Source: a virus
Virus record (IMG/VR): IMGVR_UViG_3300023179_005305
Span: 1 to 30,507 of that record
Length of the DNA stretch: 30,507 nt
Reading direction: 5' to 3' (one strand)
The notes below the pieces were generated by a model. It had not been told where the DNA came from. It did no database searches and saw only the letters and a list, made by a program, of their open reading frames with translations. The position numbers and the translations under genes were made by a program. Every line of letters starts with the position of its first letter. The first letter of the stretch is position 1. Below are positions 1 through 23,018 of this stretch, one piece after another.

Positions 1-3000
1 GGAATAGGAGATAGTACTACTATATATAGATCTACCCCGGTTCAAATAGGTTATGATTCTTGGACTGCTATAGCTGCTGGAAATGCTTATTCTATGGCAG
101 TTAGATTAGGAGGAACATTATTTACTTGGGGTTATAACAACCAATATCAATTAGGTAATGGTACTACAATCCAAAAATCATCACCTGTTCAAATAGGATC
201 TTCTTCCTGGTCTGTAGTTTCATGTGGAGAATCGCACTCAGCAGCTATAAGTACATCTGGCACTATGTACATTTGGGGAAATCAAAGCTATGGAGAAGGT
301 GGTACTAATCCACCTTCTATGTTAAGACCTGTAAAATTTTTAGATTCAACAGGTCTTGATTATGATAAAAGAAGTTGGACAGCGATGTCTTCTGGTGCAG
401 AAATGTGTGCAGCGATTGATTCTTTAGGAAGATTATTTACATGGGGTTATAATAGTGATGGACAGTTAGGATTTAATGATACGATTAATAGAAGTTCCCC
501 AACTCAGCTAGGTTCTTCTTCTTGGACAGCAGTTTCTGTAGGAGCTCATTATACTTTAGCAATAAGAAGTGATGGAAGCCTTTTTGCTTGGGGTAGAAAT
601 AATATAGGTCAATTAGGTGACGGAACTAATATAAACAGATCTTCTCCGGTTCAAATTGGAGGTTCTTTATGGACTGCAGTTCAAAATGTATCAATTGATA
701 ATTATGATCAACCAAGAAATTATGCTATAAGAAGTGGGGGAACGCTTTTTGGATGGGGTTATAACAATGGTCACTACTTGCTAGGAGATGGTACTACTAT
801 TACTAGATCATCTCCAGTTCAAATTGGAAGTTCGTCGAGATCTTGGAAGACGATTGCTGGAGGAAGTGATTTTTGTTTAGGTATTTCTAACAGTAAATTA
901 TATGGTTGGTCCCATACTGAAAGCGAAGGCTCTAGAAATTATGCAGGAGATGGTTTTAATAATTTTAATCCAATTTCAATAGAAGACGCTGCCAATTCTC
1001 AATATTTAGAGAAAAGTTGGACTGCAATTTCCTTTTGGAAAACCATAATCTCTGCAGGAATGGATGGAACAAATATTAGTCAAAGACGAGGTTATGCTAT
1101 TGATAGCACCGGCAAGTTATGGGCATGGGGACAAAATAATTATGGATTTCTCGGTGATGGAACTACTATAGATAGATCATCTCCTGTCCAGATCGGAGCT
1201 CAAAATTGGAACTCAGTTTCTGCTGGAGGATTACACACACTAGCTATTAGAAGTGATGGATATTTGTTTGCATGGGGTTCTAATGGACATGGACAATTAG
1301 GAGATGGGACTACTATTGATAAATCTTCACCTGTTCAAATAGGTAGTTCTTTATGGACAAGTATTGATGCTAGCATTCGTCGCTCATTTGCAATTAGGTC
1401 TGGAGGATCTTTGTTTGCATGGGGACAAAATCGTTATACTGCATGGCAATACATAGATTATCCTGGTATTTTAGGAGATGGGGATACTATTGATAGATCT
1501 TCACCTGTTCAAATAGGTAGTTCTAGTTGGACTGCTGTTAAATCTGGTGATCAATTTACAGTAGCAATAAGAGCAGGAGGAACTTTATTTGCATGGGGTC
1601 ATAATTCATCTGGACAATTAGGAGATGGGACTACTATTGATAAGTCTTCTCCTGTTCAAATAGGATCTTCTTCTTGGACGGCTATTTCTGCTGGTAGTCA
1701 TCACACTATGGCTATAAGATCAGGAGGAACTTTATTTACATGGGGTCATAATGGACATGGACAATTAGGAGATGAGACTACTATTGATAAGTCTTCTCCT
1801 GTTCAAATAGGCTATGATTCTTGGACTGTTATAGCTGCTGGACCAGCCACAAGTTATGGAAATAAAATAATATCAGCTGGTCAGACTAGAATTTATGCAT
1901 GGGGATATGGTGATTATCCAGTGTTAGGTTTATCATCGGGGTGGTCTGCTCCTGGTTCTATTAGTAGTTCACCAAGAGAAGTTATATCTTCGTGGATCAA
2001 GGGTTTAAATATGTCTGGTACTACAGTCATGGCTGCAGGACCAAACGTATTTGGATTAATTTACAATGGCAATGTGGGGGATACAGGACAGCTACTTACT
2101 ATAGGTCATGAACCATATGGATATGTTACTGGAAGAGGTTTATGGGAAAGATTCCCCAAAAGAATATCTGCATTTAATGATGTAAATATTATTACTGCCG
2201 GATTACATAATGCAAACATGATTAGATCTAACGGCGTAATGTATTCTTGGGGTTATAATAGACATGGTCAAGCAGGTGTAAATCGTCCTCCTCAAGATTA
2301 CCAGGAATGGTCTCCTGTTGCTCAAACTGGTTCATGGGCAGCGGTTTCATCCGCTAGACATACCACATATGCACTAGATACAAGCGGTGAGTTGTGGGTT
2401 TGGGGTCGAAATAGCATGTCTTGCTACTGGGGTTGTCAATGGGCAGGTGGTTTAAGTTTAGGCTCAGATAGTCTTAGTTATTATGGTGAAGATGTTTCTT
2501 CTCCAACTCCTATTAATAATTCTGTTTACCAAAAGGCTTACGGAACAACCTACTATTCAAAGCTTTCAAATTCTGAACCAAATTCAGGCCAACTCAGAAT
2601 GGCTATTAATAACCAAGGTGAGTTATTAACTGTTACAGGCACAGAATATTATGGAGAACTTGGAAGAATATCAAATCCAGTAATAGCACCTATGAAAATG
2701 GGAAATGCTTCTTGGACGGCTGTTGCTGCTGGTAAACACCATACTGTAGGAGTGTCAAATAATAAGCTGTTTGCATGGGGTTATAATGCCTATGGACAAA
2801 TTGGGGAAGGCTCAACTTATCATCGATCATATCCAAATCAACTTGGAAATTCATCTTGGACAGCTGTTGGTGCCGGGGGTCATCATTCGCACGCAATAAG
2901 ATCAGATGGTAAATTGTTTGGATGGGGTCGTAATGATTATTCTCAAGTAGGGGATTACACTACCATAAACAAATCTTCTCCTGTAATGATAGCAGGATCC

Positions 3001-6000
3001 TCATGGACAGTAGTATCAGGGGGAAGTTATAATACTGTAGGAATATATGCTCAAAAAGCAGTCAATTGGGGTTATAACTCAAATGGTGAATTAGGTAAAG
3101 TAACTAACAGATCAAGTCCTATTCAAATAGGAAATAAATCATGGGTAGCAGTTCAGGCTAGAAAAAATAGATCTGCCGGTATATCCATAGAAAATAGGTT
3201 GTACACATGGGGTGAAAATACTTGGGGTAACAATGGGTATGGATCTAAGGATAATTTAGATTCCCCTGTAGCAGTTGGAGGGAGGGATTTCTTATGGAAA
3301 GATAAACTAGGAAGCTTAGGTGGTTCTCATACAGCAGCATGCTCTAAAACTGGTACATTGTATGTATGGGGTAGCGGAGGAACTCATTCTGGTCTAGGCT
3401 TTCCTGCCTGGGGTGCTTGGACTCCTGCGCAAATTGGATCGGAATCTTGGATTGCAGTTTCAGCTGGATGGACCCATGCAGTAGCAATCAGAGCTGACGG
3501 TAAATTATTTGCCTGGGGAAGACAGGATGATGGTTACCCTAGGATAGGAGATGGAACAACACTTAATAAATCTTCACCGGTTCAAATAGGAGAAGATTCT
3601 TGGTCCAAAATCTCTGCTAATGCAAACAGAACTAATGCTATCAGATCTGATGGTATGCTATTTGGTTGGGGATACAATGGTCATGGAGAATTAGGAGATA
3701 ATACAACTATCAATAGATCTTCACCTGTTCAAGTAGGCTCTTCTTCTTGGAATGCTGTATCGGCAGGAGTTCATCATACGTTACTACTTGCAAGATATAA
3801 CGCATCTCAATCAACTCTCTATGCAATGGGAAATAATGGTTATGGACAGTTAGGAGATGGTACTACAATCCATAAATCATCTCCTGTCCTAGTAGATAGT
3901 ACAGGTTTTTGGAAATCTGTTAGTGGTGGATATCACCATACAATAGGTTTAAAAGAGAATAATACCCTTTATGGTTGGGGTTTGTCTACTAGTGGTGAAA
4001 TAGGAGATGGAACAACTATCAATAAGTCTTCTCCAGTTCAGATAGGTTCTTCTTCTTATAATATGATTTCTGCTGGTCATCATTCAAATTATGCTAGAGA
4101 TAGTTCGATAGCGTTCGATAAAGGAATACTTTGGGCTTGGGGTCATAATCCATATTCTATTCAAGGAGATGGTGGTTATTCAAATATCTCTTCTCCTGTA
4201 ATTTTAGGACAAGGAGGAGCAAAGACTAGTACTCAAGCTATTCCTTCAATAGTAGGTAAAGTCAATGAACCAGGTAATAAGGTAAAGTATTGGAAACAAA
4301 TTTCTTCGGGTCAAGATCATACATTAGCTATAAGATCAGACAATCTACTTTTTGCTTTCGGAAGAAATAGTCTCCACTTATTGGGGGATGGAACTACAGT
4401 AGATAGGCAATCTCCTGTACAAATAGGATCTTCTTCTTGGATTGCTGTAGCAGCTGGACAGTATCACTCTGTAGCAATACGATCTGATGGAATGCTTTTT
4501 GCATGGGGTGAAGGAAAACAAAGGAATAATTATCAGGGTGCAACAGGAGAAGGTGAAAACAACAAAGAACCTTGGACAATAAAAGGAAGTTTTCCTTTTG
4601 AAACAAGTTGGAGATCTATATCTGTAGGTCAAAATTTTATGTTGGGTATTAGATCAGATGGTATCTTATACTCATGGGGTCACAATGGTCAAGGTCAACT
4701 TGGTAATGGAACAACAATAGATTCATCATCTCCTGTTCAAATTGGATCTTCTTCTTGGATTGTTGCTGAAGCTGGTGATAATTTTTCTTTAGGAATAAGA
4801 TCAGGAGGAACTTTATTTGCATGGGGTCACAACAATCATGGACAGTTAGGAGATAGTACTACTATAGCAAAATCATCTCCTGTTCAAATTGGATCTTCTT
4901 CTTGGGTAGCTGTAAAGGGTAGTGCCAACTTCTCTATTGGAATAAGAGCTGGAGGAACTTTATTTACGTGGGGCTATAATGGACATGGACAATTAGGAGA
5001 TAATACTACTATTAATAAATCATCTCCAGTTCAAATTGGATCTTCTTCTTGGACAGCAGTAGACGCAGCAATAGCAGGAAACTTCAGCTTAGCACTAAGA
5101 TCCGGAGGAACTTTGTTTGCATGGGGTCACAATTCTTCTGGTCAGTTGGGTGATTCAACTACTATTGATAAGTCTTCACCAGTTCAAATTGGATCGGAAT
5201 CTTGGATAATAATTTCTGCAGGTCATGCTGGTACAGCTGCTATAAGAAATGATTATAAATTATTTACTTGGGGGACTAATAGTCATGGACAGTTAGGAGA
5301 TAGTACTACTATAGCAAAATCATCTCCTGTTCAAATAGGAAATTCTTCTTGGATATCAGTAGGAGCTGGACATCATCATACTTTAGGTGTAACTAGTGGA
5401 GGATCGCTTTTTTCTTGGGGATATAATGCAGATTCCCGATTAGGAGACAATACTACTATCAGTAGATCTTCGCCAGTTCAAGTTGGATCTTTTTCTTGGA
5501 TTTCAGTAAATGCTGGAGGTGATGCTAGTGCAGGAATAACTTCCGATAACAAAATTAATACTTGGGGAAATACTGGTCACGGTAAGTTAGGAAGAATGCC
5601 AGGTAATAGTGTTCCTACTCAGATAAGTTACAGAAGTTTTGCATCTATTGCAGCTGGAAGGCACCATAACTTAGCAATTGACACACAGGGTAAATTGTGG
5701 GCTTGGGGTTACGGAGGATCTGGTAATATAGGGGATGGTGAATATAGTAACAGATCATCTTTAGTACAAATAGGATCCTCTTCGTGGACAATATTATTTA
5801 AAGGAGGATCAACCTCTTACGCTTCGTTTGCTATAAGAAGTGGCGGAACCCTTTTTGCATGGGGAGATAATGGATCCTATACTTTGGGTGATAATACCAC
5901 TATAGCCAAGCCTTCACCAGTTCAAATGGGAACATCTTCTTGGATAGCAGTAGGTTCAGGAGTATCCAATGTTATGGCAATAACTTCTGCAGGAAAACTT

Positions 6001-7533
6001 TATTCTTGGGGATATTCCTCTTCTTCGCATGGTCAATATGGTGAAGATTTTAGACATTTGCTTCCTGTTAAAACTTTAACAGCTTCTCCTGGAGTATTTG
6101 GAGCAACAGTTATACATCATAAATTCGTTAGTTTGGCTCAAGGTGATTATGTAAATGCAGGAATTACTGAAGAAGGTAGATTATTTACATGGGGTCATCA
6201 AGCTTATGGTGCTTTAGGTCTCGGCGATGCCGAAGATAGGTCTAGCCCTGTTCAAGTAGGTAGTTCTTCTTGGACGGCTGTTGCTACTGGAAGACATCAT
6301 GGTGCTGCAATAAGATCTGATGGTAAGTTGTTTACATGGGGATACAATGGTCATGGAGAATTAGGAGATACTACAACCATAGAAAAAAATTCACCAGTTC
6401 AAATAGGAAATTCTTCTTGGATTGCAGTTCATGCTTCCAGACATTCAACATCCGCTATCAGAGTAGATGGTGCGTTGTTTACATGGGGACAAAATAGTCA
6501 TGGTATTTTAGGTGATAATACTACTATCAGTAAATCTTCACCTGTTCAAATAGGTGGCTCTTCATGGACTTCTGTTAGTATGGGAGCTCACCATATGTTG
6601 GGTTTGATAACTTCGGTTGTTTCAAATTCTCTTTATGCATGGGGTCATAATTCTAATGGTAGTATTGGAGATGCTAGTACTACTGATAGATCTTCCCCAG
6701 TTTTGGTATCTACTAGACCAGGTATTTCATGGAGCTTAATTTCAGCAGGTTCTAATTATTCACTTGCAACAGATCAAAATGGGCGGTTGTGGGGATGGGG
6801 ACATTCTGGTCATGGGTGTTTGGGTCCAACAGTTACTCCTGGAAATAATAGAAGAACCCCGGAGAGATTATTTGTTTCAGGAACTTCTTTATATGATACT
6901 TCTTGGATTTCAATAGGCGCCGGATTACACACTCCTTATGTTATAAGAAGTGGGGATAGAGCCTTGTTTACATGGGGATACAATAATTATGGTACAATGG
7001 GAGATGGTTCAACATTATCCAAGTCAATTCCTGTTCAAATAGGGACATCTGCATGGAAAGCTGTAGGTAAAGGTGTTGGTCATTATTCTCTTGGCGCAAT
7101 TAAGTATGGTGTAGATCAATTCGCAGGAGGACAGTTATGTATGGCAGGACAAATAAATACTTCATATATAGGAAGACCTCCAGGCAATATGGTTCCAACA
7201 GAACAATGGACCATGAATGAAATGCATTCAAATTGGGCAGCAGTAGGATTCGGTCTACACCATGCAGCTGCTTTAACAGCAGACAATAGGCTTTATGTAT
7301 GGGGTCACAACAATCATGGACAAATAGGAGATGGTACTAATAGTTCCGGCTACGAGCAAAGTAATCCAAACTTTGCTTATTCATATGTTAGAGGTACGAT
7401 GACTGGAGGTCAAGATTATCTTCCCCAATATGTACCTAATTTTTGGCCTGGATCTCTTCCAGGTATCCCAGGTAGGTGGTCGGATTTTTCGTTAGGGTAT
7501 AGACATACATTGGCATTGACTGTGGATATATAG
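1..7533 (+). CDS. Giant RCC1-repeat protein (5'-truncated by the window)
   Basis: The reading frame is open from base 1 to the TAG at 7531-7533 and the first 31 codons already encode repeat sequence. The ATG at 94 has no Shine-Dalgarno, so it is internal and the true start lies upstream. I count about 46 repeat units averaging about 54 residues. Each has the RCC1 pattern: an LFAWGxN-like strand, GQLGDGTT, SSPVQIG, SSWTAVSAG, then HT-AIRS. A few units are degenerate (for example LYGWSH and LCMAGQ). RCC1 repeats fold as seven-bladed beta-propellers, so the visible part would give six or seven propellers. The last unit ends HTLALTVDI, a plausible closing strand. No signal peptide, membrane segment or enzyme motif is visible. 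It lies upstream of the neck genes and beside a glycan-modification cassette, so a virion surface or receptor-binding role is the best guess, but this is inference. The fold is sure, the function is not. Confidence 0.93.
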   Translation, partial: GIGDSTTIYRSTPVQIGYDSWTAIAAGNAYSMAVRLGGTLFTWGYNNQYQLGNGTTIQKSSPVQIGSSSWSVVSCGESHSAAISTSGTMYIWGNQSYGEGGTNPPSMLRPVKFLDSTGLDYDKRSWTAMSSGAEMCAAIDSLGRLFTWGYNSDGQLGFNDTINRSSPTQLGSSSWTAVSVGAHYTLAIRSDGSLFAWGRNNIGQLGDGTNINRSSPVQIGGSLWTAVQNVSIDNYDQPRNYAIRSGGTLFGWGYNNGHYLLGDGTTITRSSPVQIGSSSRSWKTIAGGSDFCLGISNSKLYGWSHTESEGSRNYAGDGFNNFNPISIEDAANSQYLEKSWTAISFWKTIISAGMDGTNISQRRGYAIDSTGKLWAWGQNNYGFLGDGTTIDRSSPVQIGAQNWNSVSAGGLHTLAIRSDGYLFAWGSNGHGQLGDGTTIDKSSPVQIGSSLWTSIDASIRRSFAIRSGGSLFAWGQNRYTAWQYIDYPGILGDGDTIDRSSPVQIGSSSWTAVKSGDQFTVAIRAGGTLFAWGHNSSGQLGDGTTIDKSSPVQIGSSSWTAISAGSHHTMAIRSGGTLFTWGHNGHGQLGDETTIDKSSPVQIGYDSWTVIAAGPATSYGNKIISAGQTRIYAWGYGDYPVLGLSSGWSAPGSISSSPREVISSWIKGLNMSGTTVMAAGPNVFGLIYNGNVGDTGQLLTIGHEPYGYVTGRGLWERFPKRISAFNDVNIITAGLHNANMIRSNGVMYSWGYNRHGQAGVNRPPQDYQEWSPVAQTGSWAAVSSARHTTYALDTSGELWVWGRNSMSCYWGCQWAGGLSLGSDSLSYYGEDVSSPTPINNSVYQKAYGTTYYSKLSNSEPNSGQLRMAINNQGELLTVTGTEYYGELGRISNPVIAPMKMGNASWTAVAAGKHHTVGVSNNKLFAWGYNAYGQIGEGSTYHRSYPNQLGNSSWTAVGAGGHHSHAIRSDGKLFGWGRNDYSQVGDYTTINKSSPVMIAGSSWTVVSGGSYNTVGIYAQKAVNWGYNSNGELGKVTNRSSPIQIGNKSWVAVQARKNRSAGISIENRLYTWGENTWGNNGYGSKDNLDSPVAVGGRDFLWKDKLGSLGGSHTAACSKTGTLYVWGSGGTHSGLGFPAWGAWTPAQIGSESWIAVSAGWTHAVAIRADGKLFAWGRQDDGYPRIGDGTTLNKSSPVQIGEDSWSKISANANRTNAIRSDGMLFGWGYNGHGELGDNTTINRSSPVQVGSSSWNAVSAGVHHTLLLARYNASQSTLYAMGNNGYGQLGDGTTIHKSSPVLVDSTGFWKSVSGGYHHTIGLKENNTLYGWGLSTSGEIGDGTTINKSSPVQIGSSSYNMISAGHHSNYARDSSIAFDKGILWAWGHNPYSIQGDGGYSNISSPVILGQGGAKTSTQAIPSIVGKVNEPGNKVKYWKQISSGQDHTLAIRSDNLLFAFGRNSLHLLGDGTTVDRQSPVQIGSSSWIAVAAGQYHSVAIRSDGMLFAWGEGKQRNNYQGATGEGENNKEPWTIKGSFPFETSWRSISVGQNFMLGIRSDGILYSWGHNGQGQLGNGTTIDSSSPVQIGSSSWIVAEAGDNFSLGIRSGGTLFAWGHNNHGQLGDSTTIAKSSPVQIGSSSWVAVKGSANFSIGIRAGGTLFTWGYNGHGQLGDNTTINKSSPVQIGSSSWTAVDAAIAGNFSLALRSGGTLFAWGHNSSGQLGDSTTIDKSSPVQIGSESWIIISAGHAGTAAIRNDYKLFTWGTNSHGQLGDSTTIAKSSPVQIGNSSWISVGAGHHHTLGVTSGGSLFSWGYNADSRLGDNTTISRSSPVQVGSFSWISVNAGGDASAGITSDNKINTWGNTGHGKLGRMPGNSVPTQISYRSFASIAAGRHHNLAIDTQGKLWAWGYGGSGNIGDGEYSNRSSLVQIGSSSWTILFKGGSTSYASFAIRSGGTLFAWGDNGSYTLGDNTTIAKPSPVQMGTSSWIAVGSGVSNVMAITSAGKLYSWGYSSSSHGQYGEDFRHLLPVKTLTASPGVFGATVIHHKFVSLAQGDYVNAGITEEGRLFTWGHQAYGALGLGDAEDRSSPVQVGSSSWTAVATGRHHGAAIRSDGKLFTWGYNGHGELGDTTTIEKNSPVQIGNSSWIAVHASRHSTSAIRVDGALFTWGQNSHGILGDNTTISKSSPVQIGGSSWTSVSMGAHHMLGLITSVVSNSLYAWGHNSNGSIGDASTTDRSSPVLVSTRPGISWSLISAGSNYSLATDQNGRLWGWGHSGHGCLGPTVTPGNNRRTPERLFVSGTSLYDTSWISIGAGLHTPYVIRSGDRALFTWGYNNYGTMGDGSTLSKSIPVQIGTSAWKAVGKGVGHYSLGAIKYGVDQFAGGQLCMAGQINTSYIGRPPGNMVPTEQWTMNEMHSNWAAVGFGLHHAAALTADNRLYVWGHNNHGQIGDGTNSSGYEQSNPNFAYSYVRGTMTGGQDYLPQYVPNFWPGSLPGIPGRWSDFSLGYRHTLALTVDI
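4836..4889 (+). repeat. 54-nt exact direct repeat, copy 1 (inside RCC1 gene)
   Basis: This stretch is identical base for base to 5283-5336. It covers the GQLGDSTTIAKSSPVQ part of one RCC1 unit, in the same reading frame. The identity includes synonymous positions, which suggests recent duplication or gene conversion rather than protein-level selection alone. Confidence 0.9.
5283..5336 (+). repeat. 54-nt exact direct repeat, copy 2 (inside RCC1 gene)
   Basis: Second copy of the 54-base direct repeat at 4836-4889, offset by 447 bases. Nearby units share shorter near-identical blocks, for example around 1286-1340, 1610-1664 and 1756-1810, which differ at only a few positions. Confidence 0.9.
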
Positions 7534-8629: not shown

Positions 8630-9424
8630 ATGAAAACAGTTCATTATGTAGCAGGTCTTCCAAGATCTGGAGCAACATTGATTCTTAACATTCTTAAACA
8701 AAACCCGCTCATTCATGGAGAATCAGTTAGTGGGTTATGTTCTGTCCTCTCAGGAGTTCATTTTAATTGGGATAAAATAGAACAAAATAAAGAGTACTTA
8801 AATCTTGAATCAAAAACTAATGTGCTTAAAGCTATTATAGAAAATTATCACAATCAACATCAGAAAGATATAATTTTTGATAAAGATAGGTTATGGGTTC
8901 AGCACATCAGTTTGTTGGAATATCTGTTCCAAAAACCAGTTAAGATGTTAGTTACAGTTAGGAATCCAGCAGAGGTACTAGCTTCTTTTGAGAAGATTAG
9001 AAAACACAACCCTCTTCATATTACTTTATCTGATGATGAGCTTAAAGAAAATACCTCTGTAGCAGCAAGGGCTTATTTTTTTGCTCAACCTACAGGTAAT
9101 ATGGGAGCTGCTTATCAAGCTCTTAAAGATTCAATCACAATGGGTTATTTGGATAGACTACTGTTTGTAGATTATAATAGATTTTGTAATAGTCCAAAAA
9201 GTCAACTTAAAAGAATATATGATTTTTTTGAGTTACCTTCTTTTGAACATGATTTAGACAATATTAGTCAAGTGGAAACCTATAACGATCAAGCAACTTT
9301 ACTTCCTAATCTTCATAAGATTAAACCAAGTCTTCAAAAAACTACAGTTAATGTTGTTGAATATTTAGGTTTAGATTTATATCAACAATATAATAGAGAA
9401 ATTTTCTGGGATGCTTGGATTTAA
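8630..9424 (+). CDS. Sulfotransferase family protein (PAPS-dependent)
   Basis: This 264-residue protein carries the two PAPS-binding signatures of sulfotransferases. The 5'-phosphosulfate loop is GLPRSGATLI at residues 9-18, near the N terminus as expected. The 3'-phosphate-binding segment is TVRNPAEVLASF at 109-120, with R111 and S119 in the usual places. The family transfers sulfate from PAPS to hydroxyl groups of sugars, proteins or small molecules. The acceptor cannot be read from sequence. AAGGA precedes the ATG, and the gap to the previous gene is one base. An APS-kinase-like gene at 12804 could supply PAPS. No signal peptide or membrane anchor is seen, so it should act in the cytoplasm, unlike Golgi sulfotransferases. 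A kinase is unlikely because the motif lacks GKS/T. Confidence 0.85.
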   Translation: MKTVHYVAGLPRSGATLILNILKQNPLIHGESVSGLCSVLSGVHFNWDKIEQNKEYLNLESKTNVLKAIIENYHNQHQKDIIFDKDRLWVQHISLLEYLFQKPVKMLVTVRNPAEVLASFEKIRKHNPLHITLSDDELKENTSVAARAYFFAQPTGNMGAAYQALKDSITMGYLDRLLFVDYNRFCNSPKSQLKRIYDFFELPSFEHDLDNISQVETYNDQATLLPNLHKIKPSLQKTTVNVVEYLGLDLYQQYNREIFWDAWI

Positions 9425-9430: not shown

Positions 9431-10102
9431 ATGAATATCTTTAATATGTGTTCTATTCCTGTTTTTTCTATAGAATTATCAGGACATGAGAAAATAACTA
9501 AAAAAGAATATGATGTTTTAACTCAATTTAAAATGGAAAAAAGAGATAGTGAATTAAAACAAAGTACTATGCTTTCTGAATCCTCTTGTATTCTAGAAAA
9601 CGAAAATTTAAAAAATATTAAATTTACAAAGCAGAAATACATAGATTATTATCTCAAAAACATTCTTAAAATAAAGAACAATTTTTCTATGACTAGTTCA
9701 TGGTTAACTATGAATTATAATGGTTCTTCCCATGAACGTCATTCTCATGGAAATGTTATTTTAAGCAGTGTATTATATTTTTGTGAAGATCTAAAAGAAG
9801 ACGTAATGTCTAATTTTTATATTAGTCAGAACGCTTTGAAAGATGTATTTAAAACTTTCCAATTCACATACGATTTATCAGATTATAATGAGTATAATTC
9901 TCCTTCTCTTACGTTAGCTACTAAAACAAATTTTTTAGTAATATTTCCAGCTTGGATGCTTCATGGGTCTGAGCCAGCAGAAGGACCTTTCAAAAGATAT
10001 TGTATAGGTTCTAATTATTTTTTAAATGATCATGTTGGTTCGGGCTATCACTCACTTCAAATTAATTCAAAACTAAAAGACACTTCTTTACAAATGGGGT
10101 AA
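9431..10102 (+). CDS. Putative 2OG-Fe(II) oxygenase (TIGR02466/PF13759-like)
   Basis: This 223-residue protein resembles the phage and marine bacterial 2-oxoglutarate/Fe(II) oxygenases of the TIGR02466 type. The metal-site region is SSHERHSHGN at 99-108 (H104 and H106 are candidates), followed by the strand SSVLYF. The distal histidine is H178 in FPAWMLHGSEP, and R189 (KRYCIGSNYF) is the likely 2-oxoglutarate anchor. Such enzymes hydroxylate or otherwise oxidise a protein side chain, sugar or small molecule. The substrate here is unknown. It starts six bases after the sulfotransferase gene. It is one of three dioxygenase-like domains in the cassette, each from a different subfamily. Confidence 0.75.
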   Translation: MNIFNMCSIPVFSIELSGHEKITKKEYDVLTQFKMEKRDSELKQSTMLSESSCILENENLKNIKFTKQKYIDYYLKNILKIKNNFSMTSSWLTMNYNGSSHERHSHGNVILSSVLYFCEDLKEDVMSNFYISQNALKDVFKTFQFTYDLSDYNEYNSPSLTLATKTNFLVIFPAWMLHGSEPAEGPFKRYCIGSNYFLNDHVGSGYHSLQINSKLKDTSLQMG

Positions 10103-10105: not shown

Positions 10106-10729
10106 ATGGATGAAATCATTGTTCCGGAACATAAAAAAATAAATTTAGGTTGCGGATTTAAAAAAATGTTAGATTATTGGAATGTAGATATTGAAAAGAA
10201 ATGCAATCCTGATCAACAATTAGACTTAGAAACTTTTCCATGGCCTTACACTGACAGTTATTTTACAAATATTTGTGCTGATAATATTCTAGAACATTTG
10301 GGTCAAGATCCTAAAGTATTTGCTAAGGTAATTCAAGAAATGTATAGGATAAGTGAGGATCAATGTGAATGGGATATTATATATCCTCACCATCGAAGTG
10401 ATCTATTTTACGATGATTTCACTCATGTAAGACCTCTCACTGCCAAAACATTTTTGATGTTTGATCAGAAAAGTAATTTTGAATCTGTAGCTAAGAAGGT
10501 AAGTGATAGTACATTTGGTTTTTACTATGGCGTTGATATTGAAATAGTTGAAGTAAAATATAATTTAACTGGTCTTTTTCAAGAACAAGTAAACAATGGT
10601 ATGATAGGAAGTAGGCAACTTGATTATAATTTAAATACTGTTAACAACGTTTGTGAGACTGTAATTTTAAAAGCCAAAGTTCACAAACCAGGAAGGTATA
10701 TTAATTGGTTCAATAGCGTCAATAAATGA
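10106..10729 (+). CDS. Class I SAM-dependent methyltransferase
   Basis: A small Rossmann methyltransferase of 207 residues. Motif I is INLGCGFK at 12-19, an acidic residue at the end of beta-2 (NVDIE, D28) should bind the SAM ribose, and NILEHL at 60-65 matches the post-motif region of the Methyltransf_11 type. PHHRSDLFYDDFTHVRP in the middle is typical of the cyanophage and marine versions. The target may be a sugar or a small acid, and the sequence does not show which. The ATG is three bases after the previous stop, and the gene overlaps the next by four bases (ATGA), which indicates translational coupling. Confidence 0.82.
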   Translation: MDEIIVPEHKKINLGCGFKKMLDYWNVDIEKKCNPDQQLDLETFPWPYTDSYFTNICADNILEHLGQDPKVFAKVIQEMYRISEDQCEWDIIYPHHRSDLFYDDFTHVRPLTAKTFLMFDQKSNFESVAKKVSDSTFGFYYGVDIEIVEVKYNLTGLFQEQVNNGMIGSRQLDYNLNTVNNVCETVILKAKVHKPGRYINWFNSVNK

Positions 10730-11481
10730 GTGATATAATTTTTACTTCTGATGTTTTTTACATAGAAGATAAGCCAAGAAAGAATGTTCTTGTAGAAACT
10801 GATCAGGGTATGATGATTGTGAATAGATTTGATTCAAATCATCATCAAGTCGGCCATAGTATATGGCTACTCGATCATGGAAATTGCAATACAGTAGAAG
10901 TAAATGATTGTTATCAAGTAATTAAACATATTGAAAATCCTATAATTTTTGATGTTGGAGCTAATATAGGCACTATTTCTATTTGGCTTTCTAAAATGTT
11001 TAAAACTGGTCATGTTTATAGTTTTGAGGCTCAGAGACAGATATTTTATCAGTTAGCAGGTAATATTTCCATTAATAACTTGTATAATATCGATGTTTTC
11101 AATTTAGCTGTGGGATCTGAAAACGGTTATATTAATGTCAAAGAACCTAATTATTTCATTAATAATGATTTTGGTATTTTTAGTTTAATTGAGGAAAAGT
11201 TACCTACCACTAATAAAAATTTAGTAGTTCCATTAATTACTCTTGACACATTTGTTAAAGAGTATGAAATACCTAAAGTTGATTTGTTGAAGATTGATGT
11301 AGAAGGGATGGATATTAATGTGTTAAAAGGTTCTATAAATATTTTAGAAAAATATCAACCTATAATTTATGTTGAGCATTTTGATAACATTACTTCAAAC
11401 TTAACTAATCTTAAAAACTTTTTATCTAATTTTAACTACAATTTTGAAACAAGAAAGAACAACTTATTATGTCTGAAATAA
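10726..11481 (+). CDS. FkbM-family SAM-dependent methyltransferase
   Basis: This 251-residue protein fits the FkbM (Methyltransf_21) family. SAM motif I is IFDVGANIGT at 74-83, the beta-2 acidic residue is in YSFEAQ at 98-103, and the family hallmark KIDVEGMD followed by VLKG lies near residues 189-200. FkbM enzymes methylate hydroxyl groups of sugars or polyketides. In polysaccharide gene clusters they commonly O-methylate glycans. The start overlaps the previous stop as ATGA, and the stop lies inside the next gene. It supports reading the cassette as glycan building and capping. Confidence 0.9.
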   Translation: MSDIIFTSDVFYIEDKPRKNVLVETDQGMMIVNRFDSNHHQVGHSIWLLDHGNCNTVEVNDCYQVIKHIENPIIFDVGANIGTISIWLSKMFKTGHVYSFEAQRQIFYQLAGNISINNLYNIDVFNLAVGSENGYINVKEPNYFINNDFGIFSLIEEKLPTTNKNLVVPLITLDTFVKEYEIPKVDLLKIDVEGMDINVLKGSINILEKYQPIIYVEHFDNITSNLTNLKNFLSNFNYNFETRKNNLLCLK

Positions 11482-12284
11482 ACTTTCATTACGCATATCA
11501 ACTTTGTGATGTTGCTAGCAGAGAAAACAAACCAAGAATTTGTGGAGACGATAGAACACTACTTTCTAAAAAAAGTGTTCAATCTTTTTTTGAAAGTCTC
11601 AAACAGTTTAAAGAAAATTATCCTGAAACTAAACATCATATATGTTTTTTTAACGATAGATCAACAAACGAATTAGTTGAATTCGTTGAGACGATTATAA
11701 AAAAATATCAAAATGATCAAATTATAATTAAGTTTCAAGATAACAATGAACCTGGTATTCTCAGTGGTATTAAGCAATGTTATATGTGGCTTCAACTACA
11801 TGGTAAAGATTTAGTTTATCAAGTTCAGGATGATTATTTATTTTACCCATCAGCGTTGACTGAAATGTATGAAGTTTTTCATCAAATGCAAAAAGAAATT
11901 AAATACGATGTAATAGTTAGTCCATTCAACGATTTTTGGTTGTGGTTAGCTATTTACAGGAATTCATGTACTCCCAGAACAGTGATAGTAGGTAAAAAAA
12001 GGTATTGGATTCAATACTATGATATGAGTTGTTCTTTTATGACGTCTCATGATCAGTTTTCCAAGCACTGGGATTTATATCACAGATTTTTTGAGTTACT
12101 TGAAAACAATGATCCTGATTTAGAGAGGAGTTCATTAAACTTTATGTTGACACAAAGAGGTGTTTTAGGATTGATACCTGTAAATAATCTTGCATATCAC
12201 ATGCAAACTGAACTGGAAGAAGATCCTCACATTGATTGGCGTCCGTTATGGGAGAGTATAGATGTCTCGCTCACAACAAATTAA
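11469..12284 (+). CDS. Putative GT-A-type glycosyltransferase
   Basis: A 271-residue protein with a nucleotide-sugar transferase look. An N-terminal alpha/beta part (HHICFFNDRST at about 56-66) is followed by VYQVQDDYLFYP at 116-127, where D121-D122 form a DxD-like metal-binding site. A second half is rich in Trp and Tyr. There is no signal peptide or transmembrane helix. It overlaps the FkbM gene by 13 bases and the next gene by 23. It resembles phage-borne GT2-like enzymes, but the family match is weaker than for the genes at 15656 and 17364, so sugar transfer is likely rather than certain. Confidence 0.65.
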   Translation: MSEINFHYAYQLCDVASRENKPRICGDDRTLLSKKSVQSFFESLKQFKENYPETKHHICFFNDRSTNELVEFVETIIKKYQNDQIIIKFQDNNEPGILSGIKQCYMWLQLHGKDLVYQVQDDYLFYPSALTEMYEVFHQMQKEIKYDVIVSPFNDFWLWLAIYRNSCTPRTVIVGKKRYWIQYYDMSCSFMTSHDQFSKHWDLYHRFFELLENNDPDLERSSLNFMLTQRGVLGLIPVNNLAYHMQTELEEDPHIDWRPLWESIDVSLTTN

Positions 12285-12804
12285 ATTTATACAAAACGTC
12301 AAAGATTCTTTTCCTGATTTTTTCACTAACAAAACAATACTAGAATTTGGTAGTCATGATTTCTTTGAAGTAGCTCCTACTAGAAGTTTTTTTCATCAAT
12401 GTGCTTATATTGGAGTTGATGTAGGTCCAGGAGAAGGGGTAGATATTCAGTGCATTGCTCATGAATATAACATGCCCGATGGGACATTCGATACAGTAAT
12501 CAGCAGAGAAATGTTTGAGCATGATCCTCATTGGGATAAATCATTTTTAAATATGGTCAGACTATGTAAACCAAAAGGATTAATATTTTTTACTTGTGCT
12601 ACAACTGGAAGAGTAAAACATGGTACTCTCTACAGTGATCCTCATGGAAGTACAAATACAGTAGATTTAGGATGGGAACATTATAAAAATCTGACGGAAA
12701 AAGATTTTAGAAGTATATTAGAATTTGATCAGGTTTTCGATTCTCATCAATTTTTAACAGACAGATTTTCATATGAGTTGTTTTTTTGGGGAATAAAAAA
12801 ATAA
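12262..12804 (+). CDS. Class I SAM-dependent methyltransferase (Methyltransf_11-like)
   Basis: A 180-residue compact methyltransferase. Motif I is the slightly unusual ILEFGSHD at 26-33, in which the normal GxGxG is reduced to one glycine. The ribose-binding acid is D53 in YIGVDVG. FDTVISREMFEHDP at 76-89 is the motif IV to post-motif region. The last visible strand is YELFFWGIKK. GGAGAG about ten bases upstream of the ATG provides a ribosome site inside the previous gene. The stop overlaps the next start by one base (TAATG). The substrate is unknown, and the neighbours point to a sugar or glycan intermediate. Confidence 0.8.
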   Translation: MSRSQQIKFIQNVKDSFPDFFTNKTILEFGSHDFFEVAPTRSFFHQCAYIGVDVGPGEGVDIQCIAHEYNMPDGTFDTVISREMFEHDPHWDKSFLNMVRLCKPKGLIFFTCATTGRVKHGTLYSDPHGSTNTVDLGWEHYKNLTEKDFRSILEFDQVFDSHQFLTDRFSYELFFWGIKK

Positions 12805-13643
12805 TGGAAAAGATCTTGATTATGGGTCTTCCTGGAGCAGGTAAGACATATTTTGCTGAGAGACTAAAGAAATACTTAGAAAATAATTCTAAACCTGATT
12901 TATCTAAAATTCATTCTGACTCACCTTTTCCTAATTTGCAGGCCAGAGTGGATTGGTTTAATGCTGATGATGTTAGGAGAAAGTTCAATGATTGGGACTT
13001 TTCTAAAGAAGGTAGAATCAGACAGAGTATAAGAATGTTTGATTTTGCTATGTCTTGCAAAGGTGATTATGTTATCTGTGATTTTGTAGCTCCTTTACCT
13101 GAAATGAGAAATAATTTTAAAGCAGATTGGACGATTTGGATTGATAGTATTGATCAAGGTAGATATGAGGATACAAACAAAATATTTGTTCCCCCTGAAA
13201 TTTATGATTTTAGGGTTACAGAACAAAATGCAGAATATTGGGTACCTGTTGTTGGATCCAGGATTTTATATAAACAAAGACGTCCAGTATTTAATTGGAA
13301 AAAAGAAACAGTTCAAATGCTTGGTAGGTGGCAACCATGGCATGCTGGTCACAGAGCTTTATTTGAAAGAGCTATTGAAAAGACCGGACAAGTTTGCATT
13401 ATGATAAGAGATTGCCAAGGTTGGAATGGATCTAATCCTTTTGAAATAGATAAAGTAAAATATTTTATTAGTAGAGATTTAGATCCTTTATTTCAAGGTC
13501 AATATATAATTCAAGTGGTACCTAATATTGTAAATGTTACTTACGGTAGAGATGTCGGATATAAAATAGAGCAAGAAGTTTTTGATGGTGAAATTCATTC
13601 CATATCTGCAACCAAGATAAGGAAACAAATGGGGCTAGAATAA
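12804..13643 (+). CDS. APS-kinase-like protein fused to HIGH-type nucleotidylyltransferase domain
   Basis: A 279-residue two-domain protein. The N-terminal half has a P-loop GLPGAGKT at 8-15, NADDVRRKF at 53-61 (compare DGDNVR of APS kinases), CDFVAPLPEMR at 92-102 (compare the FISP-R segment) and IDSI at 113-116. These together match the CysC/adenylylsulfate kinase layout, with an extra loop of about 25 residues before DDVR. The C-terminal half has GRWQPWHAGH at 174-183 and ISATKIR at 267-273, the two signatures of cytidylyl/NMN-adenylyltransferases of the HIGH superfamily. ATP sulfurylase also belongs to that superfamily, but its usual domain is far longer than these 110 residues. An in-frame TTG exists at 12786, but the ATG at 12804 overlaps the previous stop (TAATG) and places the P-loop at the normal distance, so I chose it. 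It probably makes PAPS or another activated intermediate for the cassette. Confidence 0.8.
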   Translation: MEKILIMGLPGAGKTYFAERLKKYLENNSKPDLSKIHSDSPFPNLQARVDWFNADDVRRKFNDWDFSKEGRIRQSIRMFDFAMSCKGDYVICDFVAPLPEMRNNFKADWTIWIDSIDQGRYEDTNKIFVPPEIYDFRVTEQNAEYWVPVVGSRILYKQRRPVFNWKKETVQMLGRWQPWHAGHRALFERAIEKTGQVCIMIRDCQGWNGSNPFEIDKVKYFISRDLDPLFQGQYIIQVVPNIVNVTYGRDVGYKIEQEVFDGEIHSISATKIRKQMGLE

Positions 13644-13644: not shown

Positions 13645-14343
13645 TTGAAACCTTTTGATTACTGGGTGTTTGATGATTTTTTAGATATTGATTTGGCTAA
13701 AAAACTTTCTAGTGATTTTATCGATTATAATGATCCTAATTGGTTTTGCTACAATAATCCACTAGAGAATAAAAAAACTTTGAATAACTGGTATTTTTTT
13801 CCTCCATCTACTTACCAGTTTATGTCTTATTTAAATAGTCAACCATTTATAAGTTTTATATCTGAGGTAACCGGTACTGGGCAACTATACCCTGATATTG
13901 GATTACATGGTGCTGGATGGCATATTCATGGGAGAGGTGGAAAATTAAATGTTCATTTTGATTATTCCATACACCCAAAATTACATCTTCAAAGAAAACT
14001 AAACATTATAATTTACTTGACAGAAGATTGGAATCCAGAATGGGGTGGTAATTTGGAATTCTGGTCACATGATCCAATAACTAAAAGACCTAAAGATAAA
14101 GCGGAAGTCATAGATAATATTTTTAATCGTGCTGTGATATTTGACACCACTCAAAATTCGTGGCATGGTTTCCCTGATTCTTTAACGTGCCCGGATGGAA
14201 TTTACAGAAAAAGTATCGCAATGTATTATTTGACAAAACCTCCTGAAAACGTCGACAAAAGAAAAAGAGCTCTGTATTCTCCATCTAAACAACAATTGAA
14301 CGACCCTAAAATAGAAGAATTAATTATTCAGAGAGCAACATGA
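13645..14343 (+). CDS. Prolyl-4-hydroxylase-like 2OG-Fe(II) oxygenase, TTG start
   Basis: This 232-residue dioxygenase shows a complete metal and cosubstrate set: H104 and D106 in NVHFDYS, distal H174 in SWHGFPD, and R188 in YRKSIAMYYL. The flanking LNIIIYLTEDWNPEWGGNLEFW strand pair is typical of the P4H-like family, whose members hydroxylate proline or other protein side chains or nucleoside/sugar substrates. Homology begins within the first residues (KPFDYWVFDDFL), and no ATG lies between the previous stop and that sequence. TTG at 13645 is therefore the likely start, one base after the preceding stop, which suggests translation by coupling. It overlaps the next gene by ATGA. Confidence 0.87.
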   Translation: MKPFDYWVFDDFLDIDLAKKLSSDFIDYNDPNWFCYNNPLENKKTLNNWYFFPPSTYQFMSYLNSQPFISFISEVTGTGQLYPDIGLHGAGWHIHGRGGKLNVHFDYSIHPKLHLQRKLNIIIYLTEDWNPEWGGNLEFWSHDPITKRPKDKAEVIDNIFNRAVIFDTTQNSWHGFPDSLTCPDGIYRKSIAMYYLTKPPENVDKRKRALYSPSKQQLNDPKIEELIIQRAT

Positions 14344-15659
14344 GTCAAATATTAAATATTTTGGATAAGTTTGACATTAATGGTCACAATAAACCTGGTG
14401 GTACGGATAAAAACACCAACCATTCTTATGTTGAGGTATATGAAGAAGCGCTTGGTAGATTTATAGGAAAGCAAGGGTCTTTATTGGAGATCGGAATTCA
14501 ATATGGTGGATCTACACTTCTGTGGCAGGAACTACTGAAGGACTTTAAGATCTGTGCTGTTGATACCATAAATCAAGTTCATGATAAAATTCTTTCGTTG
14601 ATTGATCAACAAAGAGTTAGAATTAAATTTACTGATGCTTATCTTGAAGAAACATTTGAAAATATAAAAGTTTTATATCCTAATGGTTTTGATGTTATTA
14701 TAGATGATGGACCTCATAAGATAAAGTCTCAAATAAAATGTGTTGAGATGTACTCAGAATTATTAAAAGTTAACGGAGTTTTAATTATTGAAGATATTCA
14801 AAACTTTGATGACATAGATCTCATTATACAAAGTATTCCTAAGTCTGATTTGTATGAATATGATGTTAAAGTTTATGATTTAAGATCTAAAAAAGAAAGA
14901 TATGATGATGTTATTTTAATAATTACAAAAAAAGATAAAATTCCTGGAAATAATATTGCAGTGTTTTATCACCTTGGTCAATTTGGTCAATGGCAAAGAT
15001 TATTTCAAGAGCAAATGAATTCTTTGGTTATTAGTGGATTGTATAGCGCTGCAGATTTTATCTATATTGGGGTTAATGGAGAAGATCCTCTTCCTTTTAA
15101 TTTGCCTAAATTTAAAGTCAAATATAATAACAATAAAATATTAGAAGCAGACACTATCAAAGCTCTTTATGATTTTTGTAATGAAAATAAAGTTCACAGA
15201 GTGTTTTATTTTCACTCAAAAGGATCTACACAAGAAGATAAATCATTTAGGTTAAATGTAGAAGGATGGAGATTATACTTAGAGTATTTTAATATTCATC
15301 AATGGAGAGATTGTGTAGATCTTCTACAAGGCTACGATACGGTAGGAACAGAGTATAGTTTCGAAACCGGATTAGTAAATCAAGAAACAGGTAGCACTGA
15401 TTGGGAAACCAATCCTCATTATGCTGGTAATTATTGGTGGGCCAACTCTAGTTACATAAACAAACTAGATCCTAACTATCTTTACAGAACAGATAAAGGA
15501 TGGGATAGGTATAGAAGTGAATTTTGGATAGGTACTGGAGATCCAAAATATTATAACTTTTATCACACATCTATATTCAGTAAATATAAAGAATGGGGGG
15601 TTTCTCCTTTAGATTATCTAAAAAAAAACTTGATCGATTGGAATCGGGTAACAAAATGA
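14340..15659 (+). CDS. Methyltransferase-glycosyltransferase fusion
   Basis: A 439-residue two-domain protein. Residues 1-200 form a class I methyltransferase of the Methyltransf_24/MycE-like type: SLLEIGIQYGGST at 47-59, AVD at 73-75, FDVIIDDGPHK at 117-127 and VLIIEDIQ at 147-154. From about 204 (NIAVFYHLGQFGQW) a second domain begins, with FIYIGVNG at 240-247, VFYFHSKGS at 288-296, HYAGNYWWANSSYI at 360-373 and a C-terminal aromatic WIGTGD. This second domain occurs in phage and polysaccharide gene clusters and behaves like a GT-A-type glycosyltransferase, which I recall as a family look rather than a named enzyme. The start overlaps the previous stop by ATGA, and the 3' end overlaps the next gene the same way. 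The fusion suggests methylation and sugar transfer on the same glycan. Confidence 0.75.
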   Translation: MSQILNILDKFDINGHNKPGGTDKNTNHSYVEVYEEALGRFIGKQGSLLEIGIQYGGSTLLWQELLKDFKICAVDTINQVHDKILSLIDQQRVRIKFTDAYLEETFENIKVLYPNGFDVIIDDGPHKIKSQIKCVEMYSELLKVNGVLIIEDIQNFDDIDLIIQSIPKSDLYEYDVKVYDLRSKKERYDDVILIITKKDKIPGNNIAVFYHLGQFGQWQRLFQEQMNSLVISGLYSAADFIYIGVNGEDPLPFNLPKFKVKYNNNKILEADTIKALYDFCNENKVHRVFYFHSKGSTQEDKSFRLNVEGWRLYLEYFNIHQWRDCVDLLQGYDTVGTEYSFETGLVNQETGSTDWETNPHYAGNYWWANSSYINKLDPNYLYRTDKGWDRYRSEFWIGTGDPKYYNFYHTSIFSKYKEWGVSPLDYLKKNLIDWNRVTK

Positions 15660-17371
15660 TTAAAAATAAAAAAGCCAAATTTGTAATGATAACTATGTTT
15701 AAAAATGAGGCTACTACTATCAAAAGAATGTTAGAATCATGTTACAAATATATTGATTATTATGTAATTCAAGACAATGGTTCTACCGATGGAACTCCTG
15801 AAATAGTAGAAGATTTTTTTAAAGATAAAAATATTCCTGGATATATTTACAAGTGTGAAGAAGGTTGGGTTGGATTCGGATGGAATAGAGATCATTTACT
15901 TCAAAAATGTCAATCTACCGATCATGGGTGTGATTGGATTATAAAAATGGATTGCGATGAAACGTTGGAAATTGATAATGATTTTGATTGGGGTGTGTTT
16001 GATGATAAAAATTTACACGCTTTTCATGTCACTGCTATTCAAAGCGGAACTCTTTATCAAAGAGCATGGATATGGAATGCTAGATTAAAGTGGAAATTCA
16101 ATCATGATACTGCTCACGAAACTATTGAACTTGTAACAGAAAATATTGGAGCAAATTTTAGAAGATATAATCTTCCAAGATCTTTTAGGCATATTGGACA
16201 TTTTTCAGATGGTGAGAGTTGGAAAGTACCAACTAAGTATGTATCTGATGCTCTTAAACTTGAAGAAAAGTTAATTAGAGAAAATACAATGCTTTCAGAT
16301 TTGTATCATTTTTGGTACATTGGTAAAAGTTATTACGACGGATTTAGAGAAAAGGCTTTACCTCTTAAAGAAAGTCATAACAAAGAAATGGCAAGAAGAT
16401 GTATTTTCAATTTTACTGAATTTATTAATCATACTCATAATTTTAATCAAACCGGTAGAGCTGATAGGTTAGATGAGATGGCCTATTATGCAATGATGCT
16501 AATAGGAAATTGTTATAATTTCCTAGAAGAAAATGACCAAGCAATTTATTTTCTTGAAAAAGCTGAAGAATTTTGTCCTTTAAGAAACGAACATCTTGTA
16601 AACTTAGCAGCAATATATCAAAACATTCAGCAATACGATAAAATGCTTTCAGTTACAGAAAGATTAATAGATCAAAATAGAAAAAACCCCTTCCCTGATT
16701 TTAGTTTTATTATTGATGCTAATAGTTACTATGATACAGGTAACTATGTTTACTTACTCCACGAAGAAGCATTGAGTCATACAAGACCAACATCCATTTT
16801 TAAGGTTAATACCAACATGAAAAAAAGACTTTGGGTAGTAGATAACTTTTATCAAAATCCTGATGAAGTTAGAAAATTTGCTTTAGGTGTAGAGTATAAT
16901 GAAGATATTCAATGGTATAAAGGAATGAGATCCAAAGAGCAGTACCTTTTTAATGGTTTAAAAGAAGCACTAGAAAGTGTTATGGGTATTAAGTTAAAAC
17001 CTTTAGAAACACACGGTCAATGTGGAAGATTCCAAATATGTAGATCTCAAGAACAAATTGTATATCACAACGATTCCCAAAAATATGCTGCTATGGTATA
17101 TCTTACACCTGATGCTCCTGTAGAATCAGGTACTATGCTGTTAAGGTCAAAAATAACTGGAGCAAGGCATATTTCTGACCCTAATTTTGACGATTCTTTC
17201 AAAGGTGGTTTTTACGACAAGACAAAATTTGAAGTTGTGGATAATGTAGGAAACATTTATAATAGGTTGGTTATTATGGATTCTCATTGTATTCACGCTG
17301 CTTCTCAATACTTCGGCCAAAGTAAAGAAGACTCTAGACTAACTCACTTATTTTTCTTTGATAATGAATAA
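15656..17371 (+). CDS. GT2 glycosyltransferase-TPR-2OG oxygenase-like tri-domain protein
   Basis: A 571-residue protein with three parts. Residues 8-200 are a GT2-type transferase: ITMFKNEATTIKRMLES at 12-28, IQDNGSTDGTPEI at 38-50 and the DxD motif DCD at 99-101. Residues 210-345 are helical and TPR-like (AIYFLEKAEEFCP at 296-308). Residues 390-571 resemble DUF6445-type dioxygenases: LWVVDNFYQNPDEVRKFAL at 392-410, H471-N-D473 as the HxD pair, H544 or H547 as distal histidine, and R561 for 2-oxoglutarate. An in-frame ATG at 15593 would add 21 residues encoded inside the previous gene. The ATG at 15656 forms an ATGA overlap and starts right before the GT2 fold, so I prefer it. The fusion suggests one polypeptide that hydroxylates and glycosylates, or two steps of the same pathway. 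Substrates are unknown. Confidence 0.83.
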   Translation: MIKNKKAKFVMITMFKNEATTIKRMLESCYKYIDYYVIQDNGSTDGTPEIVEDFFKDKNIPGYIYKCEEGWVGFGWNRDHLLQKCQSTDHGCDWIIKMDCDETLEIDNDFDWGVFDDKNLHAFHVTAIQSGTLYQRAWIWNARLKWKFNHDTAHETIELVTENIGANFRRYNLPRSFRHIGHFSDGESWKVPTKYVSDALKLEEKLIRENTMLSDLYHFWYIGKSYYDGFREKALPLKESHNKEMARRCIFNFTEFINHTHNFNQTGRADRLDEMAYYAMMLIGNCYNFLEENDQAIYFLEKAEEFCPLRNEHLVNLAAIYQNIQQYDKMLSVTERLIDQNRKNPFPDFSFIIDANSYYDTGNYVYLLHEEALSHTRPTSIFKVNTNMKKRLWVVDNFYQNPDEVRKFALGVEYNEDIQWYKGMRSKEQYLFNGLKEALESVMGIKLKPLETHGQCGRFQICRSQEQIVYHNDSQKYAAMVYLTPDAPVESGTMLLRSKITGARHISDPNFDDSFKGGFYDKTKFEVVDNVGNIYNRLVIMDSHCIHAASQYFGQSKEDSRLTHLFFFDNE

Positions 17372-19410: not shown

Positions 19411-19413
19411 TAA

Positions 19414-20981: not shown

Positions 20982-21336
20982 TATTATTGCTGACACTTTA
21001 GATCTTATTCCTTTAGATCAATCAGTTCAGAAAAAGGATAATATAGATAGTGACTTTGAGTATGCTAGAGGTAGCATGATTAGTGTTATTGAAAAAGGAC
21101 AAGAAGCTCTTAATGATATGCTTGATGTAGCTCAAAGATCTCAACATCCACGAGGTTATGAAGTTGTTGCAACTTTAATTAATACTATATCAAACGCAAA
21201 TAAAGATTTATTAGAACTATCCAAAAGAAAAAAAGATTTACAACAATTTAAGGATGGACCATCTACTGTAAATAACAATCTCTACATTGGATCCACAGCA
21301 GATTTACTGAAATTATTAAAGAAACCCAATGAATGA
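20941..21336 (+). CDS. gp16: Small terminase subunit gp16
   Basis: A 131-residue protein that fits the T4-like small terminase by position (between 15 and 17), size, and the conserved central helices: FEYARGSMISVIEKGQEALND at about 39-59 (written here only as a landmark), QHPRGYEVVATLINT near 68-82, and DLLELSKRKKDL. The C terminus ends NNLYIGSTADLLKLLKKPNE. It recognises DNA and regulates the gp17 motor in packaging. The start could instead be the ATG at 20956. I kept 20941, which gives the longer protein, although neither has a strong ribosome site. It overlaps gene 17 by eight bases. Confidence 0.87.
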   Translation: MQTTTMDSSSKKTDIIADTLDLIPLDQSVQKKDNIDSDFEYARGSMISVIEKGQEALNDMLDVAQRSQHPRGYEVVATLINTISNANKDLLELSKRKKDLQQFKDGPSTVNNNLYIGSTADLLKLLKKPNE

Positions 21337-22951: not shown

Positions 22952-22962
22952 AATCCCTGATT

Positions 22963-22970: not shown

Positions 22971-22987
22971 GTTTGTAACCGTTCTTG

Positions 22988-22995: not shown

Positions 22996-23018
22996 AAATT
23001 CATTTTTGGGAGATGAAT

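Follow-up and report, generated by a model that had tools for sequence, protein, structure and literature searches.

The gene at the 5′ edge of the window, by which we denote the whole stretch of 30,507 nucleotides analysed here, encodes a phage polypeptide composed almost wholly of RCC1 repeats, and raises the question of what such a chain is for. The annotation of the window (Table 1) and of related viral loci allows this question to be approached in terms of fold, gene context, partner enzyme and mode of divergence.

Table 1. Features of the window discussed in the text.
Feature	Position	Strand	Basis or remark
Giant RCC1-repeat gene, 5′ end missing	1..7533	+	2,510 residues or more; 46 blades and a further, cut one
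C-terminal 720 residues, AF2 model	5371..7530	+	Holds seven-bladed propeller like UVR8, RCC1
Partner enzyme, TPR-like N-terminal helices and GT9-type glycosyltransferase, 349 aa	7579..8628	+	AF2 fold, locus pairing
Sulfotransferase	8630..9424	+	PF00685; syntenic in relatives
2OG-Fe(II) oxygenase	9431..10102	+	PF13759
Methyltransferase; fused to partner glycosyltransferase in many relatives	10106..10729	+	phrog_6636; fusions
FkbM-type methyltransferase	10726..11481	+	PF05050
GT2-type glycosyltransferase	11469..12284	+	PF00535
SAM methyltransferase	12262..12804	+	PF13489
P-loop kinase joined to nucleotidyltransferase	12786..13643	+	phrog_10255, phrog_395
2OG-Fe(II) oxygenase	13645..14343	+	PF13640
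Methyltransferase with second, C-terminal domain	14340..15659	+	PF13578
Glycosyltransferase N-terminal part and C-terminal domain matching phrog_1644 'minor coat protein'	15593..17371	+	PHROG; start, as read from the sequence, probably nearer 15656
GT2-like part and methyltransferase	17358..18629	+	phrog_6636 (methyltransferase); GT2 part read from sequence
T4-type neck, sheath stabiliser, terminase, tail sheath and tube genes	18667..25671	+	Fix tail context

The giant RCC1 gene

Frame +1 runs uninterrupted from the first base of the window and comprises 2,510 residues up to its stop codon (7531-7533). An earlier note on this DNA had described the frame as open at both ends; this holds for the 5′ end, which is lost at the contig edge, but the 3′ end is closed. 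The window covers the stored record in full, with no sequence further upstream, so that the gene start cannot be recovered from the record itself, and a search with a 40-base exact probe for an overlapping contig that would restore the N terminus found none. The protein matches the Pfam family PF00415 with an E-value of 1.5e-266 in 29 stretches and the RCC1-like domain PF25390 with 1301 bits, and all 35 separate PF00415 matches in the window DNA lie in this one frame. With such E-values a chance origin is excluded, and the ca. 50-residue units are RCC1 repeats of the RCC1/BLIP-II propeller superfamily; the best PHROG is phrog_4219.

A tally made by hand from the matches of a window-built repeat HMM and from the blade-start motif gives 46 blades, of which 41 are clear, two slightly off-pattern (starting at about residues 1020 and 1852) and three degenerate (about residues 682, 871 and 2381), in addition to one blade cut by the contig start. 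The visible chain thus covers no fewer than six propellers and a portion of the next one. About 46 repeats and a polypeptide of more than 2,500 residues had been read correctly in the earlier note, as had six or seven consecutive propellers for the visible part of the chain. At the DNA level only two stretches are similar enough to register as tandem repeats, and the GC content of the gene is 0.38-0.40 as compared to ca. 0.29-0.33 in the downstream cassette.

Propeller fold

The last 720 residues were modelled with AF2 using an alignment with 35 relatives. The model shows all-beta blades with a mean pLDDT of 74 and is weak close to the very C terminus. Its best structural match is UVR8 (Z 35.2 over 339 residues), followed by HERC2, RPGR, HERC1 and RCC1 and then by BLIP-II (1jtd, Z 19.8); UVR8 is also the best hit of the RCC1 protein in a sequence search against the PDB (5.7e-34). 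The propeller prediction of the earlier note therefore stands. Together with the length ladder of about 350 residues described below, the UVR8 match identifies the fold as seven-bladed, with the phase of the individual propellers in the window not fixed.

Relatives of the RCC1 giant and their length ladder

A search with the whole window RCC1 protein revealed no close relatives. A profile of its repeats, in contrast, gave at least 590 confirmed stretches in viral contigs, from which 74 loci were fetched. Among the matches listed, complete RCC1 genes contain 1 to about 12 propellers, the largest protein having 4,388 residues and 86 repeats in one frame, while the 361-aa protein of L026 is a natural single propeller. 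Measured from the first to the last repeat, the chains fall on steps of about 350 residues (R = 0.56, p ~1e-8 in a set of 58 multi-propeller proteins, thinned at 80% identity, the p-value being indicative because the proteins are not phylogenetically independent), and a ladder of this strength did not arise in any of 5,000 simulations that left the number of blades free. The ladder therefore provides independent support for seven-bladed units.

The N termini of the relatives are mostly short leaders of about 20 residues (MLLIEQLLAK, MLLEKWLLA and MGFxAKKLL types) or else a domain of about 80 residues, and in most chains the repeats then continue up to a few residues before the stop. The leader was not found on other virion genes, and the ~80-residue domain, sought as a shared anchor, was found in none of the non-RCC1 genes of the same loci; in phage records the domain matches only hypothetical proteins of Xanthomonas phages. 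In the nearest relative (L039/L088, enzyme 82% identical) the RCC1 gene measures about 15.2 kb or 5,070 codons and is broken by a frameshift in the assembly (L039 3042-16822, L088 360-9935).

Two further arrangements were observed. In five divergent phages (28-43% identical) the RCC1 chain ends just past the 'WGxNxxGQLG' of one blade (L092 at 5542, L071 at 5720, L076 at 10231-10235, L079 at 7773-7805 and L084 at 17686-17690), and a second RCC1 chain without a leader opens at once with the rest of the blade, the junction being an ATGA or TAAATG overlap in four of the five and lying 28 bases further on in the fifth; it looks as if two RCC1 chains share one blade. The marine virus AG-345-E08 (L011, 18059-26141) encodes three separate single-propeller RCC1 proteins whose N-terminal segments differ from one another but all contain a motif of the W-x-L-x-Q type, and these genes are interleaved with 2OG oxygenases and glycan enzymes.

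Position in a tail-fibre module

PHROG and Pfam annotation of the window agrees with the earlier view of the neighbourhood, in which neck and tail genes lie together with an operon for glycan modification. The cassette is followed by the T4-type genes gp13 to gp19, as assigned by PHROGs, and beyond the tail genes by matches to the portal, protease, scaffold and capsid genes of the Pelagibacter phage Mosig. The terminase is nearest (~55%) to those of T4-type Pelagibacter, Methylophilales and Synechococcus phages. In Mosig the slot before the neck genes is occupied by tail-fibre genes and 2OG oxygenases.

The upstream side, absent from the window, can be seen in the relatives, where the gene order is collagen-like tail fibre, tail-assembly chaperone, RCC1 giant and TPR plus GT9-type glycosyltransferase. 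Collagen-like tail-fibre genes (PF01391, tail-fibre PHROGs) precede RCC1 in many relatives, and the chaperone is a protein of about 160 residues matching PF16778 (Phage_tail_APC) at 1e-9 to 1e-15. With fibre and chaperone as neighbours, the RCC1 gene of the relatives is part of a tail-fibre module. The same order is found in the isolate BUCT-ZZ01 (host Synechococcus elongatus PCC 7942), which carries a fibre gene, a chaperone-like gene (24.9 bits, just under the cut-off), an RCC1 gene (14 repeats, 700 aa) and a fusion of glycosyltransferase and methyltransferase. The accessions of its RCC1 protein and partner enzyme are UTS52180.1 and UTS52179.1, respectively.

In the cultured Pseudomonas phages PollyC and SeaP3, the latter with Pseudomonas protegens Pf-5 as host, RCC1 repeats lie behind the T7 tail-fibre N-terminal domain PF03906 (23 bits, just under the Pfam cut-off of 25.2), the fusion gene following an internal virion protein gene in PollyC and a lytic transglycosylase gene in SeaP3. 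The fused T7-type anchor was found only in these two phages, whereas the relatives of the window protein have the leader or the small domain described above. Presence of RCC1 proteins in virions has been established by mass spectrometry for three phrog_4219 proteins of Escherichia phage W70 (PMC11370258) and for GAP_001 of Cronobacter phage GAP32 (PMC5259590).

Partner glycosyltransferase and glycan cassette

A scan with the partner glycosyltransferase as its only seed yielded 42 distinct loci, not at a contig edge, in which the enzyme is at least 36% identical. An RCC1 gene lies immediately upstream of the enzyme in 38 of these, and in none of seven more distant loci (<36% identity). Three of the four exceptions (L117, L135 and L157) have RCC1 elsewhere in the locus, and the fourth, L138, begins 515 bases away from the end of its contig. 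When bacterial genome assemblies were scanned, 11 of the 15 best enzyme matches had RCC1 in their locus, as against only one of the weaker matches; the best bacterial contig also has phage neck genes, which makes binned phage DNA a likely explanation for part of these cases. Five loci from Bdellovibrionales/Bdellovibrionaceae assemblies (L169, L170, L172, L174 and L177) contain RCC1 genes beside the same glycosyltransferase, which could be binned phages or bacterial genes.

The AF2 model of the partner enzyme (pLDDT 91) has a GT-B fold of the GT9 type, its nearest structures being GT9 heptosyltransferases and TibC (3tov, Z 18.0; 1psw, 17.4; TibC 4rap, 16.2), with weaker Foldseek matches to OGT and SPY, which stand for the TPR O-GlcNAc transferase type (GT41). 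The fold search was informative in this respect, whereas a sequence-profile search of the enzyme against the PDB returned nothing useful. PF01075 is detected weakly in six of 45 family members; N-terminal helices are a feature of the family, with TPR matches in few members.

TibC adds sugars to serine residues of the adhesins TibA and AIDA-I (PMC4358343). Ser+Thr make up 21% of the RCC1 protein, a share surpassed in the window by a single small ORF only. This ORF of 87 residues (28105-28368, between the portal and protease genes) has 26% Ser+Thr and no assignment. From the gene pairing and the serine-rich chain, glycosylation of the RCC1 protein by its partner enzyme appears somewhat more probable than not. 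Pairing indicates linkage rather than substrate, and the enzyme could alternatively act on the fibre, the capsid, the host surface or a sugar precursor.

The cassette (7579-18629) was also compared with that of three relatives (L094, L096 and L099), where the kinase is ~70% and the glycosyltransferase ~66% identical to the window counterpart, while the neck genes are less conserved (gp13 ~46-48%, gp15 ~40%). This suggests that RCC1 gene and glycan cassette move between phages as a unit.

Gain and loss of propellers and diversification of loops

Closely related phages differ in both the length and the sequence of their RCC1 chains. Between L094 and L148 the neighbouring genes are 91% (glycosyltransferase), 94% (sulfotransferase), 97% (gp13) and 96% (gp15) identical; in the last RCC1 propeller identity drops to 69%, and the number of propellers goes from five to two. 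L018 and L089 share 99% identity in the glycosyltransferase and 72% in RCC1, with three and two propellers, respectively, and for L137, L141 and L086 the corresponding values are 94-98% and 60-65%, with seven, five and three propellers. The whole-propeller steps suggest recombination by propeller, tuning reach or valency.

In the closest pairs the synonymous divergence of RCC1 resembles that of its neighbours, but dN is several-fold higher. Variation is concentrated at repeat positions 6, 8, 9, 17-19, 38 and 39, the last two aligning with the W and R in the GWRHT motif of UVR8, residues of the UVR8 interaction surface. In three pairs, two of which share one member, dN/dS at the variable positions is 1.46 (bootstrap P 0.011), 3.12 (P <0.001) and 1.28 (P 0.048); of the other pairs among the seven, one has a dN/dS above 1 without support and three have values below 1. 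These values come from a counting method, which takes no account of gene conversion that may occur between blades, and the positions were selected on the window sequence only; the signal is weaker than with partly pair-derived positions, yet it is kept.

Probable role in host recognition and alternative functions

The gene at 1-7533 is, in our judgement, likely to encode a host-recognition adhesin belonging to the tail-fibre module of a T4-type phage. We infer its presence in the virion of this phage, its attachment by a leader and its receptor binding. According to this model, a chain of whole seven-bladed propellers would probably be held on the virion through the short N-terminal leader, the leader as point of attachment being a guess, and would be displayed on, or together with, the collagen-like fibre that precedes it. 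Its conserved blades would serve as a scaffold for variable loops on the face used for interaction in RCC1 and UVR8; these loops would touch the cell surface and change under selection, and recombination would add or remove whole propellers with altered reach and valency as a result. The TPR plus GT9-type enzyme would glycosylate the serine-rich chain as TibC does TibA, and sulfotransferase, methyltransferases and the other cassette enzymes might elaborate the glycan.

The length ladder and the gain and loss of whole propellers would also suit a non-adhesive spacer or whisker on tail or head that sets reach or provides a glycan shield while another protein recognises the host; the paired glycosyltransferase fits such a role and the adjoining tail fibre could bear the true tip. 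A pure spacer has no need, however, of diversifying loops on a binding face, and single-propeller members as well as a fused fibre version exist, which makes this function improbable.

Less probable still is an internal virion protein whose propellers bind and order the packaged genome. The label 'chromosome condensation' points in this direction, the authors of the phAPEC6 and W70 studies propose a DNA role for their RCC1 proteins (DNA condensation is suspected for W70; PMC11370258), and detection in virions is compatible with DNA organisation and adhesion alike. The RCC1 gene nevertheless sits in a fibre-chaperone module and is fused to a tail-fibre N-terminal domain in the Pseudomonas phages. 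The window chain is near neutral (158 K+R vs 150 D+E), and the pI quartiles of the relatives, 6.5 to 9.8, reveal no conserved basic character; fast divergence of loops would moreover be unexpected in a protein that binds the phage's own DNA. Fibre slot, chaperone, fusions, virion relatives and loop diversification thus favour the adhesin over a DNA-organising protein.

That the protein acts within the host cell or is secreted as a decoy or counter-defence factor binding host proteins during infection is very unlikely: RCC1 and BLIP-II propellers (the latter matched with Z 19.8) are protein binders and diversifying loops would also suit an arms race, but the position in a tail module with a chaperone, the relatives in W70 and GAP32 virions, the tail-fibre fusion and the cost of a protein of 2,500-4,400 residues argue against it. 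A Ran-GEF or chromatin role such as eukaryotic RCC1 has was not considered further, since bacteria possess neither Ran nor nucleosomes.

The adhesin or fibre role proposed in the earlier note is well supported by context, namely the upstream fibre and PF16778 chaperone, the PollyC and SeaP3 fusions, the virion relatives and the hypervariability; to call it a new class was too strong, as phage RCC1 proteins, including those in virions, are already known. The constant association with one glycosyltransferase, the ladder of whole propellers, the short leader and the pattern of selection were beyond the reach of that note. Beyond the single gene, the family may represent a receptor-binding architecture of aquatic and other phages, a proposal to which we assign even chances: 1 to about 12 chained propellers with a minimal leader, length change by whole propellers, one positively selected loop face and dedicated glycosylation by a TPR-GT9 enzyme, with two chains joined by a split blade in some phages.

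Comparison with known systems

In the open-access papers searched we found no account of phage proteins with many chained propellers, of a ladder in their lengths, of a partner enzyme or of selection and hypervariability in the loops. RCC1 is not mentioned in a paper on large aquatic phages (PMC12619734) or in the S-SRM01 paper, and 'rcc1' in RcGTA and rumen-phage papers refers to gene or strain numbers, not to the domain. PHROGs file phage RCC1 proteins under 'DNA, RNA and nucleotide metabolism', so that a function in host recognition would change the annotation of a family with several hundred loci or more. A loop-varying fold that is counted in whole propellers and has its own modifying enzyme would be a new way to tune reach, valency and specificity, and with BUCT-ZZ01 a cultured isolate of the same gene order makes the idea directly testable.

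Like the window, W70 (W70_237-239) and GAP32 (GAP_001) are phages with RCC1 propellers, and phrog_4219 is common to W70 and the window. The W70 proteins, however, have 40-43 kDa and thus about one propeller each, whereas the window chain has at least 266 kDa and is paired with a glycosyltransferase. PollyC and SeaP3 resemble the window in presenting RCC1 in a tail-fibre setting, in cultured phages, but differ from the window relatives in the fusion behind a T7-type anchor domain. Adhesins at the fibre tip of T4-like phages, such as gp38 of T2- and S16-type phages, are encoded just after the fibre gene and carry hypervariable loops on a fixed scaffold; their fold is unrelated to RCC1, and they are not known to show a ladder of whole-domain lengths.

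The eukaryotic proteins UVR8, HERC and RCC1 have the same seven-bladed fold as the window protein. UVR8 and RCC1 consist of one propeller and HERC proteins of a few propellers spread along the chain, whereas 1 to about 12 are directly joined in the phage chains. With regard to the enzyme, TibC-TibA and AAH-AIDA-I of the BAHT family likewise combine a dedicated enzyme of heptosyltransferase fold with a large serine-modified adhesin (PMC4358343), but the window enzyme differs from TibC in its TPR-like N-terminal helices, and its putative acceptor is a propeller chain instead of a beta-helix autotransporter. In a survey of highly repetitive beta-propellers, RCC1/BLIPII is among the major groups and the maximum is 47 blades per protein (PMC9218822); with about 86 blades in one frame and lengths that change in whole-propeller steps, the phage RCC1 relatives exceed this maximum.
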